Source: Bacteroidota bacterium
GTDB lineage: Bacteria > Bacteroidota > Bacteroidia > Bacteroidales > JADFUO01
DNA length: 7,826 nucleotides
NCBI GenBank assembly: GCA_030614305.1
Contig: JAUWKH010000072.1
Location: 1 to 7,826 of the forward strand
Direction: 5' to 3'
The position numbers and the translations under genes are program-made. The notes under the pieces are model-generated. The model was not told where the DNA came from. It did not search any database and saw nothing but the letters and a program-made list of their open reading frames with translations. Within the stretch, counting starts at the first letter, position 1; the number at the start of each line of letters is the position of its first letter. This document shows positions 33 to 7,826 of the stretch, one piece after another.

Positions 33-1304
33 CTAAATTCCTCTCAATAAAATATTTCCTATCTGGCAATTCAGGCACTTTTTTTCATTACAATAATAAT
101 TTTTTAGTTCCAATAATGATTGTGTAGTATATGCTGTTGAAGCTCTTAATCCCAGTTCCTGCCATTTCCGGATGATCGAGTTTTTTTCACCAGGCACCTG
201 AGCTAATAATTGCAGGGCTTTTTCTTTATATGAATAGTTATCTTTTTTAAGACCATATACAAATAAAAACGGGACAATTGTGTTGATGATGATAAGATTC
301 AGAGCATTATTCCCAAAGGACTTTTTTCTTTTTACAGATGGTTTGTCAAAAATATAATGAGTGTCCCAATATCCTGAAGTTGAAATATCAAATAATTTGT
401 AAACTTCATTTAAAGTGTTGAGTTTAATTATTTTTGAAAATAAAGCAGATGATTTGTAGATCAGGTTTGCAAACTGGGAAATTCTTATTGTCGGGAAATT
501 TGAGGGACGTAACCTGAGAAATTTCCAAAGAAAACCATCAACCGGTTTTAATGAAAATTTCTTTTTTAGAAAATTATACTCATTTTTCAAGTTGTTCGGA
601 TATTCATCTTTAAAATCAGTTTCAAGTAATCCTGCCTGTCCAAACAACAATGATTCAATCTGAAATTGATTGTTTTTATGTTTTGCAAGATAATTAACGG
701 GTAATGATTTTGCCAGTAATTCAAAAGGTTCGGCATTTGTATTAAACCCGAAATTCCTTGCAAGATATTGATAAAAAGTTTGTTCCCAGTTGTTTTTATT
801 TAAATTTAAAGTTGATTCTATAGTTTTTGCTTTATGTTCGAGGCGTTCGATAAGAAGTCTTTCAAGCCAGCTATTTAAATGAAATTCGTCAATATTGCCG
901 ATTAATTTCTGGCAAGGTATCCAATATTTGTTAGTCATAAAACTTTTGTACCGGTAGTATAATTTTTTATCGAATTTTTCATTTAATTCAATAGTTGGGA
1001 TGATTTCGCTGTTATTTCGTTTAATTATTGCATCATTTTTATAAACTACATGTAAAATGATATTATCAAAAGCATTATTTTCCTGATGATTATGTTTGTA
1101 CCAATCAGAAGAGTTTACATGTATTTCAACATTTCCTGCCCAGATAGTATCACCGATTTTAATTTTTGCATTAAAAAAATCAGGTCCGGAATCAGTGTTT
1201 CTTTCTCCTGATTTTAAAATATTTATTGATTCTCCTGATGTTGTGGTAATATCCTTGTCAAACAACCTGAACATCCAGATGTAATAGAGGAATTCTTCAG
1301 TCAT
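33..1304 (-). CDS. DUF2851 family protein
   Basis: A complete 423-residue protein that I recognise as the DUF2851 family, common in Bacteroidota and of unknown function. The N-terminal third carries the family signature: SGPDFFNAKI (about residues 39-48), WAGNVEIHVNSSDW (55-68), then paired histidines H71 and H73 and an ILHVVY strand (83-88). The middle has a helical region with LRLRPSNFPTIRI (263-275). The C-terminus ends in a cysteine cluster, C405-x4-C410-x2-C413, that might bind a metal. No signal peptide or membrane segment is evident, so it is probably cytoplasmic. The ATG at 1304 precedes MTEEFLYYIW, the expected family start. The upstream region has no recognisable Bacteroidota promoter and is occupied by heptamer repeats. 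The family is secure by pattern; no activity is established. Confidence 0.9.
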   Translation of the reverse strand: MTEEFLYYIWMFRLFDKDITTTSGESINILKSGERNTDSGPDFFNAKIKIGDTIWAGNVEIHVNSSDWYKHNHQENNAFDNIILHVVYKNDAIIKRNNSEIIPTIELNEKFDKKLYYRYKSFMTNKYWIPCQKLIGNIDEFHLNSWLERLLIERLEHKAKTIESTLNLNKNNWEQTFYQYLARNFGFNTNAEPFELLAKSLPVNYLAKHKNNQFQIESLLFGQAGLLETDFKDEYPNNLKNEYNFLKKKFSLKPVDGFLWKFLRLRPSNFPTIRISQFANLIYKSSALFSKIIKLNTLNEVYKLFDISTSGYWDTHYIFDKPSVKRKKSFGNNALNLIIINTIVPFLFVYGLKKDNYSYKEKALQLLAQVPGEKNSIIRKWQELGLRASTAYTTQSLLELKNYYCNEKKCLNCQIGNILLRGI

Positions 1305-1359
1305 GGGTTTGGTTTTTGTATATTTTTAGTATTATGTTAAATAATATGGTTTTAAACAA

Positions 1360-1394
1360 GATAAAAGATAAAAGTAAAAAGATAAAAGTAAAAA
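1360..1394 (+). repeat. Heptamer array, left arm of a 31-bp inverted repeat
   Basis: Five consecutive 7-bp units in perfect register: X X Y X Y, where X is GATAAAA and Y is GTAAAAA. Bases 1360-1390 are repeated exactly, in inverted orientation, at 1818-1848. The two arms enclose the broken four-helix-bundle gene. The array lies between that gene's 3' end and the start of the DUF2851 gene. Confidence 0.9.
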
Positions 1395-1411
1395 AGATAA
1401 GTTTATGGAAT

Positions 1412-1771
1412 TTAAATAGTTATCTTGATTTTTGAACAATAGAACCTAAATATCTTTTTTAGTTCAATCGATTCGCTTATTAGCCAAATGGATTCATTTA
1501 CGTCCAAATTATTAGGTTCAATTTCTTTAATTATTCTATGCCAATAGTTTGATTCTCTCATTTCTCTTAAGGATATTCTGATTTTATTGGTAAAATCTGC
1601 TTTTGAAGAACCTGCTTGTGCTTCTTAGTAATTAGCTCCTGATGATGTGGAACTCTTTGTTAATTGATACCGGATAATTTTCATTTCAGTACTATCAGGT
1701 AATGTTTTTAAAAATATTATTGTGCGAACTGCAAAATTAAAAAGACGTTGTGATAAATCATTTTTTTTCAT
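1412..1771 (-). pseudogene. Four-helix-bundle (S23/23S rRNA intervening-sequence) protein gene with an internal stop
   Basis: Reading from the ATG at 1771 gives a 120-codon frame ending in TAA at 1414-1412, the normal length for the four helix bundle protein family (TIGR02436, S23 type). It starts MKKNDLSQRLFNFAVRTIIF, continues with IRYQLTKSSTSSGANY and, after the stop, EAQAGSSKADFTNKIRISLR, REMRESNYWHR and a final helix. The family consensus at the break is close to SGANYEEAQ, but codon 49 is TAA (1627-1625), where a GAA would be expected. No other stop or frameshift is present, so the lesion looks recent, or the base may be a sequencing error. Relatives are found inside 23S rRNA intervening sequences or as free-standing genes; their function is unclear, though Avd of diversity-generating retroelements shares the fold. 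The gene is enclosed by a 31-bp inverted repeat. Confidence 0.85.
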
Positions 1772-1817
1772 AAGGGTATAAAAATAGAATGTTTGAAATA
1801 AATAAAAACAATTAATG

Positions 1818-1848
1818 TACTTTTATCTTTTTACTTTTATCTTTTATC
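1818..1848 (-). repeat. Heptamer array, right arm of the 31-bp inverted repeat
   Basis: The reverse complement of 1818-1848 is identical over all 31 bases to 1360-1390. Read on the minus strand it has the same unit order, X X Y X, with X GATAAAA and Y GTAAAAA. Similarity continues outward for about six more bases with one mismatch (AAACAA against AAATAA) and stops inward after GTA. It lies upstream of the four-helix-bundle pseudogene. Confidence 0.9.
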
Positions 1849-1887
1849 TTATTTTTACTTAATACCATTTTGCTAAAAATGTCATAA

Positions 1888-2141
1888 AACATCATTAACC
1901 TGCTTAATTCAAGAATTTTTATTCCGGTTGAGATGGACGGAACTCCGGGTAAGGTAGTTTTTGAGATTGCCCACCGTGATCCTCAATCAAAAATATACTG
2001 GCATCTTGATGAAGAATATATTGGCTTTACAGAAAATTTATTTCAAATGGAAATGAGGCCTGAAAAGGTAAACATATAGTTACTGTTGTGGATGGATCAG
2101 GATCGGAAGCAGTTGTGAAGTTTGAAATAGTAAATAACTGA
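1888..2141 (+). pseudogene. pbpC: 3' remnant of a penicillin-binding protein 1C gene, frameshifted
   Basis: The plus strand encodes a fragment that I recognise as the extreme C-terminal domain of PBP1C (BiPBP_C type): IFIPVEMDGTPGKVVFEIAH from 1915, then RDPQSKIYWHLDEEYIG and TENLFQMEMRPEK. The frame then hits TAG at 2077-2079. Shifting frame near 2066-2069 restores the expected ending, HIVTVVDGSGSEAVVKFEI followed by VNN and TGA at 2139-2141. The family usually reads PEKGKH here, so one G appears lost from a short G run. Upstream the frame closes at TAA 1885-1887, and no transglycosylase or transpeptidase domain is present; that space holds the four-helix-bundle cassette. PBP1C is a periplasmic, membrane-anchored peptidoglycan synthase, but this fragment cannot be functional. 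Confidence is high for the match and moderate for the exact 5' limit. Confidence 0.8.
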
Positions 2142-2183
2142 TCTTATTATACATCTAACGAGGTAAACATGTACATTTTTCTA

Positions 2184-2234
2184 CAGTCTTCAGTCTTCAG
2201 ATTGCCGACTGACTGCTGACTGTGGACTGCTGAC
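2184..2234 (+). repeat. CAGTC-type heptamer repeat with inverted halves
   Basis: The stretch parses in 7-bp units without slippage: CAGTCTT twice, then CAGATTG, CCGACTG, ACTGCTG, ACTGTGG and ACTGCTG. The first half is rich in CAGTC and the second in its complement GACTG, so 2184-2195 can pair with 2211-2222 as two 5-bp helices around a 2-nt internal loop. It is related in sequence to the array at 6368-6409. Confidence 0.85.
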
Positions 2235-2332
2235 CGCAAATGGTTTATATCTATTTATAAAATATCACAATTTATACCGTTTTTAGTATAAGCTTATTGT
2301 TCAAAAAACTTCAGATATTTATTAAATGAAAG

Positions 2333-2427: not shown

Positions 2428-2476
2428 TTTTTACTTTATACTTTAGCCTTTAGCCTTTTTTCTTTAGCCTTCCTCC
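2428..2476 (-). repeat. TTTAGCC heptamer array
   Basis: Seven consecutive 7-bp units keep register: TTTTTAC, TTTATAC, TTTAGCC twice, TTTTTTC, TTTAGCC and TTCCTCC. TTTAGCC is the reverse complement of GGCTAAA, the main unit of the array after rny (5075-5160), so the same family occurs here in the opposite orientation. Confidence 0.85.
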
Positions 2477-3301: not shown

Positions 3302-3501
3302 TACCCGCATTAATTCAAATATGTTTGTAAACTCAACATTATAAAATTTAGAGTTAAAGCTCATAAATTCGTAGGACGGGCCTCAGTCCGCTTAGGTGGA
3401 ATTTCCGGTTAACACCGGGACAGTGGAAGTTCGAAAAATTTGGCAACTCTATCCATGTCATCTGGGGTTTACTAAACTCCTGAATTTCTGCGGGTTTTTT
3501 T
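3302..3501 (+). ncRNA. ssrS: 6S RNA candidate
   Basis: About 195 bases between zapA and rny have no coding frame and fold into a long rod. The ends pair strongly: ACCCGCA (3303-3309) with TGCGGGT (3489-3495), AATTCA (3312-3317) with TGAATT (3481-3486), and GTTTGTAAACTC (3323-3334) with 3465-3477 through one bulge. TAGAGTT (3349-3355) pairs with AACTCTA (3445-3451). Inside are GGAC/GTCC (3374-3377 with 3386-3389) and an apical hairpin CCGGT/ACCGG (3405-3409 with 3414-3418). The size, the closed rod with interior loops and the location next to zapA (also the neighbour of ssrS in E. coli) fit 6S RNA, which binds RNA polymerase holoenzyme as a promoter mimic. The closing stem followed by a T tract (3495-3512) could also terminate transcription. 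The family call rests on context and fold; no covariance model was run. I see no clear promoter of its own. Confidence 0.78.
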
Positions 3502-5074: not shown

Positions 5075-5160
5075 AAAAGGCTAAAGGCTAAAGTGAAAAG
5101 GCTAAAGGCTAAAGTGAAAAGGCTAAAGTGAAAAGGCTAAAGGATAAAGTTAAAAGTTTG
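5075..5160 (+). repeat. GGCTAAA heptamer array after rny
   Basis: From 5077 twelve 7-bp units follow in unbroken register: AAGGCTA and AAGTGAA in the order X X Y X X Y X Y X, then the degenerate AAGGATA, AAGTTAA and AAGTTTG. Seen as longer repeats, a 21-bp unit occurs twice exactly (5075-5095 and 5096-5116), then a 14-bp shortened form (5117-5130) and a diverged 21-bp copy (5131-5151). It starts directly after the rny stop codon. Confidence 0.93.
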
Positions 5161-5167
5161 TTTATTG

Positions 5168-5223
5168 AATTCGTAATTCTAAATTCTTAAATCTAAAATC
5201 AAAAATCTAAAATCAAAAATCCC
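5168..5223 (+). repeat. AATCTAA-type heptamer array between convergent genes
   Basis: Eight 7-bp units in register: AATTCGT, AATTCTA, AATTCTT, then AAATCTA and AAATCAA alternating twice, and AAATCCC. It ends where the stop codon of the minus-strand lipoprotein gene begins (5224). It is in phase with the array at 5077-5160, with one 7-base spacer (5161-5167). Together the arrays fill the whole 149-bp gap, and no GC-rich terminator hairpin is visible in it. Confidence 0.88.
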
Positions 5224-6367: not shown

Positions 6368-6409
6368 CAGTCTCCAGTCTCCAGTCTGCAGTCTCCAGTC
6401 TCCAGTCTG
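6368..6409 (+). repeat. CAGTCTC heptamer array beside the IS element
   Basis: Six 7-bp units in register make two identical 21-bp repeats (6368-6388 and 6389-6409), each built as X X Y with X CAGTCTC and Y CAGTCTG. The array lies upstream of def and runs directly into the left end of the IS3 element, which may have inserted in it and cut it short. Confidence 0.9.
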
Positions 6410-6437: not shown

Positions 6438-7358
6438 TTATAAAGTGTATACTTTTTCTTTTTTGCTTCTTTTTTCTTTTTGTTTATAACTGGTATTTTT
6501 TGTTAATACTGATGCAAATACGTGTAATTGTGGACGTTTGTCAACCATTATTTTGTTAATTTGCTGTTCAAAATCATAAGGTGTCAACTTATTTAGTGAA
6601 CTGTGTGGTCGTTCAAAATTATACATTCTTACTGCCATTGTCAAATATTTTTTTAGTTGTTGAAAATTTTTAGGGTTGTAGGGCTCTATGTAATAGTTTT
6701 TAATTGTTTCTATTACTCTTTCTGCATGTGAATTATCATAAACTATCTGCCCCATACTGTTTTTAATTCCATAAGCTTTAGTAAGCTTAATAAAAGGTTT
6801 AGAATAATATTGTCCTCCTCCATCAGAATGAAGAATAGTACAGTCAGAATTGCGAGTAATTCCCAGAGTATTTATTGCAAGTTTTAAAGCTGGGAGCGTA
6901 GTATTGATTGTCATCAGACTATCACTGGCATAGCATCCTGGAATAAATCTGGTGTAGATGTCCATTATCAAGGTTATATAGTAATATCTATCTACAAGCC
7001 AGTAATAGGTTATATCGCTTACCAAAACCTGATTTGGTTTATTGATTGTCAACCCTTCTAAAAGATTTGGAAACCGGACTACGCCAGTTGAATCTGTTGT
7101 GTTGATAAACCTTTTGGTCTTAACGAGTTTATATCCATTTTCAAAGGCAAAGTGTTCAAATGCATCCCGTCCAATACCCTGTGGCACTAATTTAATATAC
7201 ATTGTTCTGGCTGACATCTTGGGATGAGATATTCTTAATTTCTTAATTAATGGCAATAGTTGTTCTTTCAACTCTTCTTTTGCCAACATTATTTTATAAC
7301 GTTGATGAAAGTTTTGCCTTGTAATGCTTGGTATGGTATATAAATCATTCATTTTCAA
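6438..7358 (-). CDS. IS3-family transposase OrfB (DDE catalytic subunit)
   Basis: This frame encodes the rve-type integrase core that cuts and joins DNA strands. Up to 306 residues are read: an HTH_21-like region with LRISHPKMSARTMYIKL (41-57), then the catalytic acids D115 in LVSDITYYW, D179 in LHSDGGGQY and E213 in NSHAERVIETIKNYY. The tail includes MYNFERPHSSLNKLTPYDFE (245-264). The D179-E213 gap is 33 residues, slightly shorter than the classic 35, which I associate with Bacteroidota members of the group. A basic extension of about 40 residues follows. The frame shown opens with TTG at 7358, overlapping the orfA stop in TTGA; the first ATG is at 7352. More likely the active protein is an OrfAB fusion made by -1 frameshifting on the A10 run at 7417-7408, since this frame is open upstream as far as 7436. 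Confidence 0.94.
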   Translation of the reverse strand: MKMNDLYTIPSITRQNFHQRYKIMLAKEELKEQLLPLIKKLRISHPKMSARTMYIKLVPQGIGRDAFEHFAFENGYKLVKTKRFINTTDSTGVVRFPNLLEGLTINKPNQVLVSDITYYWLVDRYYYITLIMDIYTRFIPGCYASDSLMTINTTLPALKLAINTLGITRNSDCTILHSDGGGQYYSKPFIKLTKAYGIKNSMGQIVYDNSHAERVIETIKNYYIEPYNPKNFQQLKKYLTMAVRMYNFERPHSSLNKLTPYDFEQQINKIMVDKRPQLHVFASVLTKNTSYKQKEKRSKKEKVYTL

Positions 7359-7774
7359 TGTGTGTTTGTCTTGGTTTTCCCAAAACCAGGATAGGGCCCA
7401 GAACCAATTTTTTTTTTGATATCGTAACCTACTTCTTTACTACTTAATTCTAAAAGTTTTTCAATAAAATCCAATTGGAGCTGCTTCTGACCTACTGTAC
7501 GTTCCAGTTCTTTTATCCGTTCCCGAAGATATTCAATTTTTTTTGTGTCACTCTCTGGCTCTACAACATATTTATAGCCCTTTTTTAAGAACTTTGAATA
7601 CTTGTATATCCATTTGTATATAGCCGATCGGGTTACCTTGTGTTCCCTTGAAACTTGTGTAATTGTGATGAGATTTTGTTCAATCTGCTTCACAATATCT
7701 TGCTTGAATGATTCACTGAAGTGTCGCACTTCTTTGATTTTTCGTTTTACTTGATTTTTTCTTAAAGTTACCAT
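7355..7774 (-). CDS. IS3-family transposase OrfA (helix-turn-helix subunit)
   Basis: A 139-residue protein from the ATG at 7774. Residues about 18-60 form the HTH_Tnp_1 domain (HFSESFKQDIVKQIEQ, ITQVSREHKVTRSAIYKWIY) that recognises the element's ends. Residues about 78-112 form a leucine-zipper-like helix (IEYLRERIKELERTVG, QLDFIEKLLEL) typical of IS3 OrfA for oligomerisation with OrfAB. An upstream TTG at 7807 would add 11 residues but lies inside the terminal inverted repeat, so the ATG at 7774, preceded by AAGAAAAAA, is preferred. An A10 run on this strand (7417-7408) encodes part of the lysine stretch near residue 120 and can direct ribosomes into the orfB frame; without slippage, translation ends at TGA 7357-7355. 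Confidence 0.92.
   Translation of the reverse strand: MVTLRKNQVKRKIKEVRHFSESFKQDIVKQIEQNLITITQVSREHKVTRSAIYKWIYKYSKFLKKGYKYVVEPESDTKKIEYLRERIKELERTVGQKQLQLDFIEKLLELSSKEVGYDIKKKIGSGPYPGFGKTKTNTH
7408..7417 (-). promoter_or_regulatory. A10 slippery run for -1 frameshifting between orfA and orfB
   Basis: Ten consecutive A residues on the minus strand lie within the region where both frames are open (7436-7355). The orfB frame is -1 relative to orfA, has a stop at 7439-7437 just before this region, and stays open from the A10 run through to orfB. This is the usual design for OrfAB synthesis in the IS3 family, where A-rich slippery sites are known. Confidence 0.7.
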
Positions 7775-7802
7775 TTTTTTCTTATTTTTGGTATACAAAA
7801 TG

Positions 7803-7826
7803 GTCAACTTATTTCAGGCAAGCACA
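7803..7826 (-). repeat. Right terminal inverted repeat of the IS3 element
   Basis: Read inward on the minus strand it starts TGTGCTTGCCT and ends GTTGAC, pairing with the left repeat at 6408-6431. Its outer base is the last base of the window. Confidence 0.72.

Follow-up and report, generated by a model that had tools for sequence, protein, structure and literature searches.

Four-helix-bundle genes between inverted heptamer arrays probably form a minimal mobile unit of bacteria

Introduction

The intervening sequences (IVSs) of 23S rRNA are the closest described systems to the unit analysed here. Passages of one study describe the Coxiella IVS as 428 nt long, with an S23 gene inside and a 28-bp terminal stem that is cleaved by RNase III in vitro (PMC4990558). 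Upstream of the gene are tandem GACAGAT heptamers, two or three depending on the strain, and a mobile origin is among the hypotheses that these passages name for the element (PMC4990558). The same passages state that no function is known for S23 proteins and that the origin of rRNA intervening sequences is unclear (PMC4990558). Part of one paper reports heptamer repeats from Beggiatoaceae, cyanobacteria and Bacteroidetes (PMC4679880); part of another reports them from Xanthomonas and Nostoc, with 70 and 75 pairs of inverted GGGAATC arrays counted in two Xanthomonas genomes (PMC4692102).

With these systems we compare a unit in which a four-helix-bundle (4HB) gene of S23 type lies between inverted heptamer arrays. 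It was found in a stretch of 7,826 nucleotides from a Bacteroidota bacterium (contig JAUWKH010000072.1), referred to here as the window.

Results

A decayed 4HB gene between inverted heptamer arrays

The original prediction, made from the letters of the window alone, was of an exact 31-bp inverted repeat built of heptamers. Both parts hold. The ends of the unit are exact reverse complements over 31 bp, within a wider pair (1354–1416 and 1792–1854) that matches at 79%, and each arm is built from GATAAAA and GTAAAAA units repeated with period 7 (Table 1). The flanks, one of them reverse-complemented, align with a score of 51, the maximum in 2,000 dinucleotide-preserving shuffles being 31. The minus-strand gene said to be bracketed by the repeat is indeed of S23 type, matching TIGR02436 with 64.5 bits, and is the sole gene between the arms. 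It contains one in-frame TAA and is therefore a pseudogene, a point absent from the prediction.

A truncated pbpC gene had also been placed next to the unit. The fragment there, which we take to be pbpC, has a 91% match in the congener G001, at the end of a gene whose frame is open over at least 496 codons, and its remainder was not found in the window's genome (81% complete), so that the truncation stands. The neighbour on the other side is presumably DUF2851-like. Besides the unit's arms the window has five further heptamer arrays, which shows how frequent heptamers are in this genome and calls for a background control. Elsewhere in the window, two minus-strand ORFs (6438–7807), presumably an IS3-type pair, include an rve domain match at 6747–7043. 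The intergenic stretch 3355–3500, which precedes a 514-aa ORF and has a T-run at its end, looks like a structured RNA that we take to be 6S-like; an Rfam scan of this stretch gave no family at its threshold.

Table 1. Positions of the unit, its neighbours and the separate heptamer arrays in the window
Feature	Position	Strand	Remarks
Complete unit, outer arm limits	1354..1854	.	wider arm pair
Arm on the 3' side of the gene	1358..1394	.	GATAAAA + GTAAAAA heptamer array; perfect inverted part 1360-1390
4HB pseudogene, PF05635/TIGR02436 type	1412..1771	-	in-frame TAA 1625-1627; HMM match 1427-1753
Arm on the 5' side of the gene, inverted heptamer array	1818..1850	.	detector 1820-1850; perfect inverted part 1818-1848
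423-aa neighbour gene	33..1304	-	flank from gene to first arm conserved in G002 and G003
3' fragment of gene open in G001	1895..2149	+	upstream part not found in the window's genome
Separate heptamer array	2180..2237	.	inverted halves by eye; no gene
Separate heptamer array, TTTAGCC type	2428..2458	.	period-7 detector
Separate heptamer array, GGCTAAA/GTGAAAA type	5076..5158	.	period-7 detector
Separate heptamer array, AATCTAA/AATCAAA type	5168..5221	.	period-7 detector
Separate heptamer array, CAGTCTC type	6368..6408	.	period-7 detector

The window's own site records loss

Two congeners, G002 and G003, match the window at 91–92% up to the first arm (G003 from base 1, a G002 piece from 847). 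Past that arm they resume at the equivalent of about 1789–1818, so that of the unit they retain a fragment of one arm with a short internal stretch, the gene and the other arm being missing. A third congener, G001, carries a unit (L110) that is 83% identical to that of the window and has two stops, and towards the 423-aa gene the match continues beyond the arm until the contig stops. We considered whether L110 and the window unit are copies at different sites, but their flanks point to the same site. Since the flanks make this reading likely, the pair was dropped as evidence of movement. The window copy is therefore old, and dead or dying, and the remnant in G002 and G003 is a loss. No gain was seen at the window's own site. 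It is other loci that give the evidence for movement.

Inverted arms are general for 4HB genes

TIGR02436 matches, 133 in total, come from 29 of 41 related genomes. Twelve weak or partial matches were unused and two pieces were merged into one gene, leaving 120 genes; 13 were without 200-nt flanks and 107 were scored. The arm score is that of an alignment of one flank against the other after reverse-complementing, with a main threshold of at least 20. At this threshold 66 of the 107 4HB genes have arms as against 1 of 95 control ORFs from the same loci; at 25 or more the counts are 44 of 107 and 0 of 95. Mispaired flanks reach 20 in 96 of 1,274 pairs between loci (7.5%) and in 52 of 508 within one genome, and shuffled flanks in 74 of 1,070 (7%). 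At a score of at least 30 there are 31 real loci of 107 versus 1 of 1,070 shuffled ones. When flanks were compared directly and not inverted, 30 of 107 reached 20, as against the 66 inverted.

Period-7 arrays flank 27 of 107 4HB genes on both sides and 44 on either side, the corresponding counts for control ORFs being 0 and 9 of 95. Period 7 is the commonest (35 of the 107 5' flanks and 36 of the 3' flanks), and its multiple 14 occurs in 31 and 29, compared with 12 and 11 for period 8 and 9 and 4 for period 6. The heptamer sequence itself varies from locus to locus. Some loci have arms of period six or eight; heptamers are therefore not in all arms, and the score also counts short or imperfect arrays and AT-rich alignments, some over-threshold alignments being long AT-rich matches. 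The other 41 of the 107 genes fall below the threshold. Inverted flanks around related genes, which the original prediction had proposed as a check, are thus present here and in the subfamily set below.

The 5' arms of 57 loci are strand-biased in composition (G 20.8%, C 10.6%), and the 3' arm mirrors this. One 4HB gene (L094, L099, L100, L006/L007) occupies the same site in all four congeners with weak arms where scored (12, 14 and 15), and may be a settled, immobile copy.

Units occur in other phyla and on plasmids

A scan of named genomes supplied 80 loci, the best 80 of at least 586 relatives. Within this set, arms of at least 20 were found at 28 of 60 loci from Bacteroidota and kin and at 12 of 20 from other phyla; mispaired flanks of these best 80 of at least 586 reached that score in 2.4% of 791 cases. 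Heptamer arrays on both sides were seen at 5 of the 60 and 5 of the 20 loci of the same best 80. Phyla were taken from record titles, several of the records being MAGs whose names are possibly wrong and one carrying no phylum. A scan of 19 genomes of the non-Bacteroidota group found 30 loci, 17 of them already scored; the 13 further loci belong by title to Clostridia, Chloroflexi, Verrucomicrobia, Omnitrophota, Gracilibacteria and others, and 10 of them have arms of at least 20. For the other phyla combined (20 loci among the best 80 of at least 586, plus the 13), arms are present at 22 of 33. On cyanobacterial plasmids, 14 units were examined out of 24 records. Arms of at least 20 enclose eight of the 14, with heptamers such as GGGAGTA, GGGAACA and GGTGACA, and in the plasmid units the 4HB gene is the sole annotated gene between the arms.

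Arm type follows protein subfamily

For pairs of units from different bacterial families, the 6-mer similarity of the arms is 0.03–0.04 at protein identity below 0.4 and 0.046 at 0.4–0.5, rising to 0.084 at 0.5–0.6 (41 pairs) and 0.120 at 0.6 or more (21 pairs). Arms in opposite orientation give 0.051 and 0.061 in the last two classes, and distant flanks, compared in the same way between bacterial families, are flat at 0.15–0.16. The Mantel correlation of protein with arm between bacterial families is 0.165 (p 0.0005, 2,000 permutations). Over all different-family pairs the Spearman correlation is weak, at just 0.044, and the tie therefore lies among close proteins.

Next, 30 loci from each of three protein subfamilies were taken from 395 Bacteroidota genomes, and 3 of the 90 were left out for short flanks. 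Arms of at least 20 occur at 24 of 29, 20 of 30 and 19 of 28 loci, 63 of 87 in total. From the 4-mers of the 150 nt beside the gene, leave-one-out assignment placed 77 of 87 loci in the correct subfamily, compared with 33 of 87 from flanks 400–700 nt away and, with permuted labels (100 runs), a mean of 29.6 and a maximum of 42. A classifier trained on 5' flanks placed 68 of 87 3' flanks when these were reverse-complemented and 53 when they were not. The heptamer cores of the three subfamilies are AATG/TAAT, GGTT/GTTT and CAGT. Pairing 5' and 3' flanks of different loci of one subfamily gave scores of at least 20 in 15% of 2,438 pairs. Since a unit's own two arms reach this score at 63 of 87 loci, the arms look as if one had been copied from the other: a type common to the subfamily, with the best match inside the unit. 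Co-inheritance alone could also produce the tie between protein and arm.

Units are present or absent at matching sites

The flanks of 15 sites from four congeners were searched in all four, an occupied site having a gap of about 960 bases. At nine of the 15, the two flanks lie together on a contig of some congener, with 302–695 between them. Absence is clean at three sites (L025 versus L150, L053 versus L161, and L087 versus both L158 and L159). By eye, L152 at the L064 site has lost the gene and kept both arms, L153 at the same site is a collapsed derivative, and L160 at the L087 site is a decayed one. The evidence is weaker at five of the nine polymorphic sites (L003, L062, L070, L076 and L081), where the spacer of the congener is filled with other sequence; in the case of L076 this filling (L156) is, judged by eye, a unit of L087 type without its gene. 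For the remaining six of the 15 there was no verdict, or the site was occupied in a congener too. Target-site overlap at the empty sites of congeners is 3 to 16 bp, and 5 bp by eye in two. Within single genomes, three pairs of units are 84–90% identical; the members of a pair differ in one flank, and for one of the two the other flank is truncated by the end of its contig.

Seven plasmid sites were queried for empty counterparts and six were read; all six have counterparts without the unit. These are cas10–cmr3 (occupied in Picosynechococcus PCC 7003, a 12-bp spacer in PCC 7002), an integrase operon (Calothrix brevissima and three other genera), a TraM-domain operon (Nostoc C052 and C057), nrdB–nrdA (Nostoc edaphicum and Calothrix NIES-4105), a spacer between two hypothetical genes (Nostoc ATCC 53789 versus C052 and C057) and cas6–cas4 (Pseudanabaena CCNP1313 and ABRG5-3). 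For the seventh query (L259), some of the records listed lack a 4HB gene. Empty plasmid spacers measure 0 to 52 bases, the inserts stop at or near the arms, and no target-site duplication was seen at the plasmid sites read. Neither the window unit nor the plasmid units contain a transposase or polymerase, only the 4HB gene. Orthologous sites with and without the unit, for which the original prediction had called, therefore exist in both settings (9 of 15 congener sites, 6 of 6 on plasmids), and because of this presence and absence at matching sites the units are likely to be mobile.

Three plasmid units (L250, L251 and L258) lie inside CRISPR-cas operons, twice at cas6–cas4 and once at cas10–cmr3. 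One spacer of Nostoc plasmids (L256/H78/H79/H82) holds one kind of 4HB unit in one plasmid and a 4HB gene of little DNA similarity in three others, more plasmids being empty; perhaps this is a recurrent site.

Most units are oriented with transcription

Among the relatives, 4HB genes co-directional with both neighbours outnumber those opposed to both by 81 to 3 (of 100). The ratio is 67 to 1 (of 72) in the named set, drawn from the best 80 of at least 586, 70 to 0 (of 86) in the subfamilies and 9 to 3 (of 14) on plasmids. Control ORFs are also mostly co-directional (226 to 24 of 355). If units entered operons in either direction, the two numbers would be equal. We read the bias as a need for read-through transcription or as harm that antisense insertions do. 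An RNA-level mechanism would produce it as well.

The protein and solitary arrays

Five relatives match PF05635, the bAvd model scores above its cut-off in two of five 4HB proteins, and no Y1 domain was reported in the 4HB proteins scanned. The solved structures of the family include the five-chain entries 2rld and 2gsc. Two glutamates (98% and 97%), a glutamine, a serine and an asparagine are conserved in 86–98% of 187 sequences.

Heptamer arrays also stand alone, 40 lying more than 300 nt from a 4HB gene and 97 nearer. Considered as possible non-autonomous copies of their own genome's units, solitary arrays have a mean similarity of 0.342 to the arms of that genome versus 0.248 to those of others, with 20 wins and 18 losses by best match, and 6 of 40 have an inverted partner nearby versus 1 of 40 with a random partner.

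For Y1 transposase genes (loci L366–L405), 41 matches were collected and four with short flanks left out, leaving 37. Long inverted flanks of REP type are frequent around the Y1 genes of this order, with scores of at least 20 at 20 of the 37.

Discussion

The finding is real and general, and largely as had been guessed from the window. Any account of it has to cover what the genomes display: the build of the units, their spread over phyla, their polymorphism, the tie of subfamily to arm, the sense bias, and derivatives without the gene in which one arm or both survive. The explanation we consider probable is that the window holds a decayed copy of a 4HB gene between inverted heptamer arrays, and that such units are a minimal mobile element, predicted to act through binding of the repeats by its own protein. 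Several observations weigh against it: overlaps at empty sites vary in length, the unit encodes no transposase or polymerase, 41 of 107 4HB genes fall below the arm threshold and strict arrays flank both sides of just 27, five of the nine polymorphic congener sites are the weaker cases, some polymorphisms (the window's own site included) are losses, ordinary ORFs are mostly co-directional too, and the correlation of protein with arm is weak by rank.

A reading at the RNA level, in which the arms are selected for complementarity and RNase III excises the unit from operon mRNA as in 23S rRNA, strikes us as unlikely, although much about the units resembles the Coxiella case as passages of PMC4990558 describe it: gene family, inverted ends and heptamers are the same, and that IVS is cut by RNase III in vitro. 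Plasmid units are moreover intergenic, and units mostly lie in the direction of transcription. However, an RNA stem under selection should favour mismatches that pair as G-U in the sense RNA, and there is no such excess (188 sense versus 200 antisense in 57 loci; 498 versus 565 in 184 loci); nor was rRNA found in the 20 other-phyla loci scanned, among the best 80 of at least 586, and Rfam gave no match in the window. The original prediction had allowed a cassette that is either mobile or folds as RNA; site polymorphism at other loci makes the first likely, and the wobble counts lend no support to the second. A second candidate is an enzyme acting in trans: a Y1 (HUH) transposase of RAYT/IS200 type would move the unit as it moves REPINs, with the 4HB gene as passenger. 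Y1_Tnp is present in 28 of 29 genomes with 4HB genes versus 5 of 12 without (Fisher p 2.5e-4), and in 17 of 17 versus 1 of 8 in a post hoc subset of genomes of 2.0–3.7 Mb. No such tie is seen for RVT_1 (14 of 29 versus 6 of 12), rve (14 of 29 versus 3 of 12; p 0.30) or DDE_Tnp_1 (23 of 29 versus 8 of 12; p 0.44), and the overlaps at empty sites vary in length. Yet Y1 genes carry inverted arms of their own, palindromic by eye, with heptamer arrays at just 1 of 37 5' flanks and 0 of 37 3' flanks. Larger genomes, moreover, have more Y1 genes (rho 0.51), and the number of 4HB genes shows weak correlations with those of rve and DDE_Tnp_1 as well (rho 0.35 and 0.31). We therefore set the Y1 transposase aside as the mover, co-occurring as it does with other arms, and give this account little credence. 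Reverse transcriptase was rejected as mover on the RVT_1 counts above; a search with the RVT_1 profile in G001, G002 and G003 (92, 77 and 82% complete), which hold 14, 12 and 14 TIGR02436 matches, gave no match.

Ordinary regulation would also place arms beside the gene. They would then be operators by which the 4HB protein controls itself or its neighbours, in a regulatory or toxin–antitoxin-like gene carried about by other elements, an account to which the tracking of protein subfamily by arm type and the position of the arms, inside the 220 nt searched on each side of the gene, lend themselves. At the plasmid sites read, however, inserts extend no further than the arms or their immediate vicinity and include no second annotated gene, and three of four proteins have no PADLOC model match, the fourth matching DrmA only (E 0.0036); we hold this reading to be very improbable. 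Hardly tenable, finally, is the notion that heptamer arrays are simple repeats born of slippage and strewn over genomes, with 4HB genes merely among them. Solitary arrays do exist, five of them in the window, but control ORFs show arms in 1 of 95 cases and mispaired flanks in 7.5%, the sides match best when inverted (66 versus 30 direct of 107), arms predict the protein subfamily (77 of 87), and the association recurs in further phyla, at 12 of 20 loci among the best 80 of at least 586 and at 10 of 13 others.

Returning to a mobile unit whose protein binds its repeats, we favour the 4HB protein as the predicted recogniser of the arms and some other enzyme as the mover. This preference follows from the missing tie to reverse transcriptase, the different arms of Y1 genes, the five-chain structures, the likeness to Avd and the conserved residues. 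The protein, a relative of the five-chain structures and of Avd, would bind its cognate heptamers as an oligomer and join the arms, and the bracketed unit would then be copied or moved by a host enzyme. Insertions may persist mainly in intergenic spacers and in sense orientation. There the gene would be expressed by read-through, and RNase III, cutting the hairpin, would spare the neighbours as in rRNA intervening sequences. Copying of one arm from the other would keep the two alike, and units without the gene may survive as solitary heptamer arrays and hairpins.

More tentatively, and we think it possible though not probable, the units belong to a mobile class found throughout bacteria. Its sole protein would be a 4HB oligomer that reads a seven-base code, each subfamily its own heptamer, assembling on inverted arrays and spreading both units and gene-less hairpins; from it would stem the 23S rRNA IVSs and a large share of the heptanucleotide repeats in cyanobacteria, Bacteroidota and Xanthomonas. 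To our knowledge, heptanucleotide repeats have been catalogued without an agreed explanation, and the unit may account for part of these long-known bacterial seven-base repeats. If the tie between subfamily and heptamer is one of recognition, it brings the function of PF05635, the origin of IVSs and the heptanucleotide repeats together in a single system open to test, with a compact code from protein to sequence.

No link between 4HB genes outside rRNA and heptamer arrays appears in titles or abstract openings among the matches listed, a scope outside which lie preprints and most subscription papers, so that novelty is unproven. The published heptanucleotide repeats of cyanobacteria, Xanthomonas and Beggiatoaceae resemble the arms in being intergenic tandem heptamers, with inverted pairs in Xanthomonas in the part of that work cited above; the terms 'S23' and 'four helix' are absent from the main text of PMC4692102, and the heptamer section of PMC4679880 makes no mention of 4HB genes. 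With REPINs and their RAYTs the units share short inverted repeats that are dispersed between genes and tied to a protein. They differ in that the arms are tandem heptamers, and the Y1 genes here, having other arms and almost no heptamer arrays, are not partners flanked by the same repeats. A classical insertion sequence, or the full-length element behind a MITE, holds a transposase, where these units have the 4HB gene alone. Avd of diversity-generating retroelements is a related family of partial likeness, as the bAvd matches and part of PMC10053308 indicate, but there is no reverse transcriptase in the unit, nor was one found in G001–G003.

The 23S rRNA IVS remains the nearest system, and nearer than the original prediction had said when it noted the shared plan: in the passages of PMC4990558 that describe it, the Coxiella IVS has a PF05635/S23 gene within complementary ends, a length of 428 nt compared with about 490 bp here, and tandem heptamers just upstream of the S23 gene. 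The window copy likewise has an S23/PF05635 frame inside, with one stop, and complementary ends of 31 bp. The present units nevertheless lie outside rRNA, between protein genes, and their arms differ from locus to locus yet follow the protein subfamily. The unit would work like an rRNA intervening sequence but is not a member of that class.
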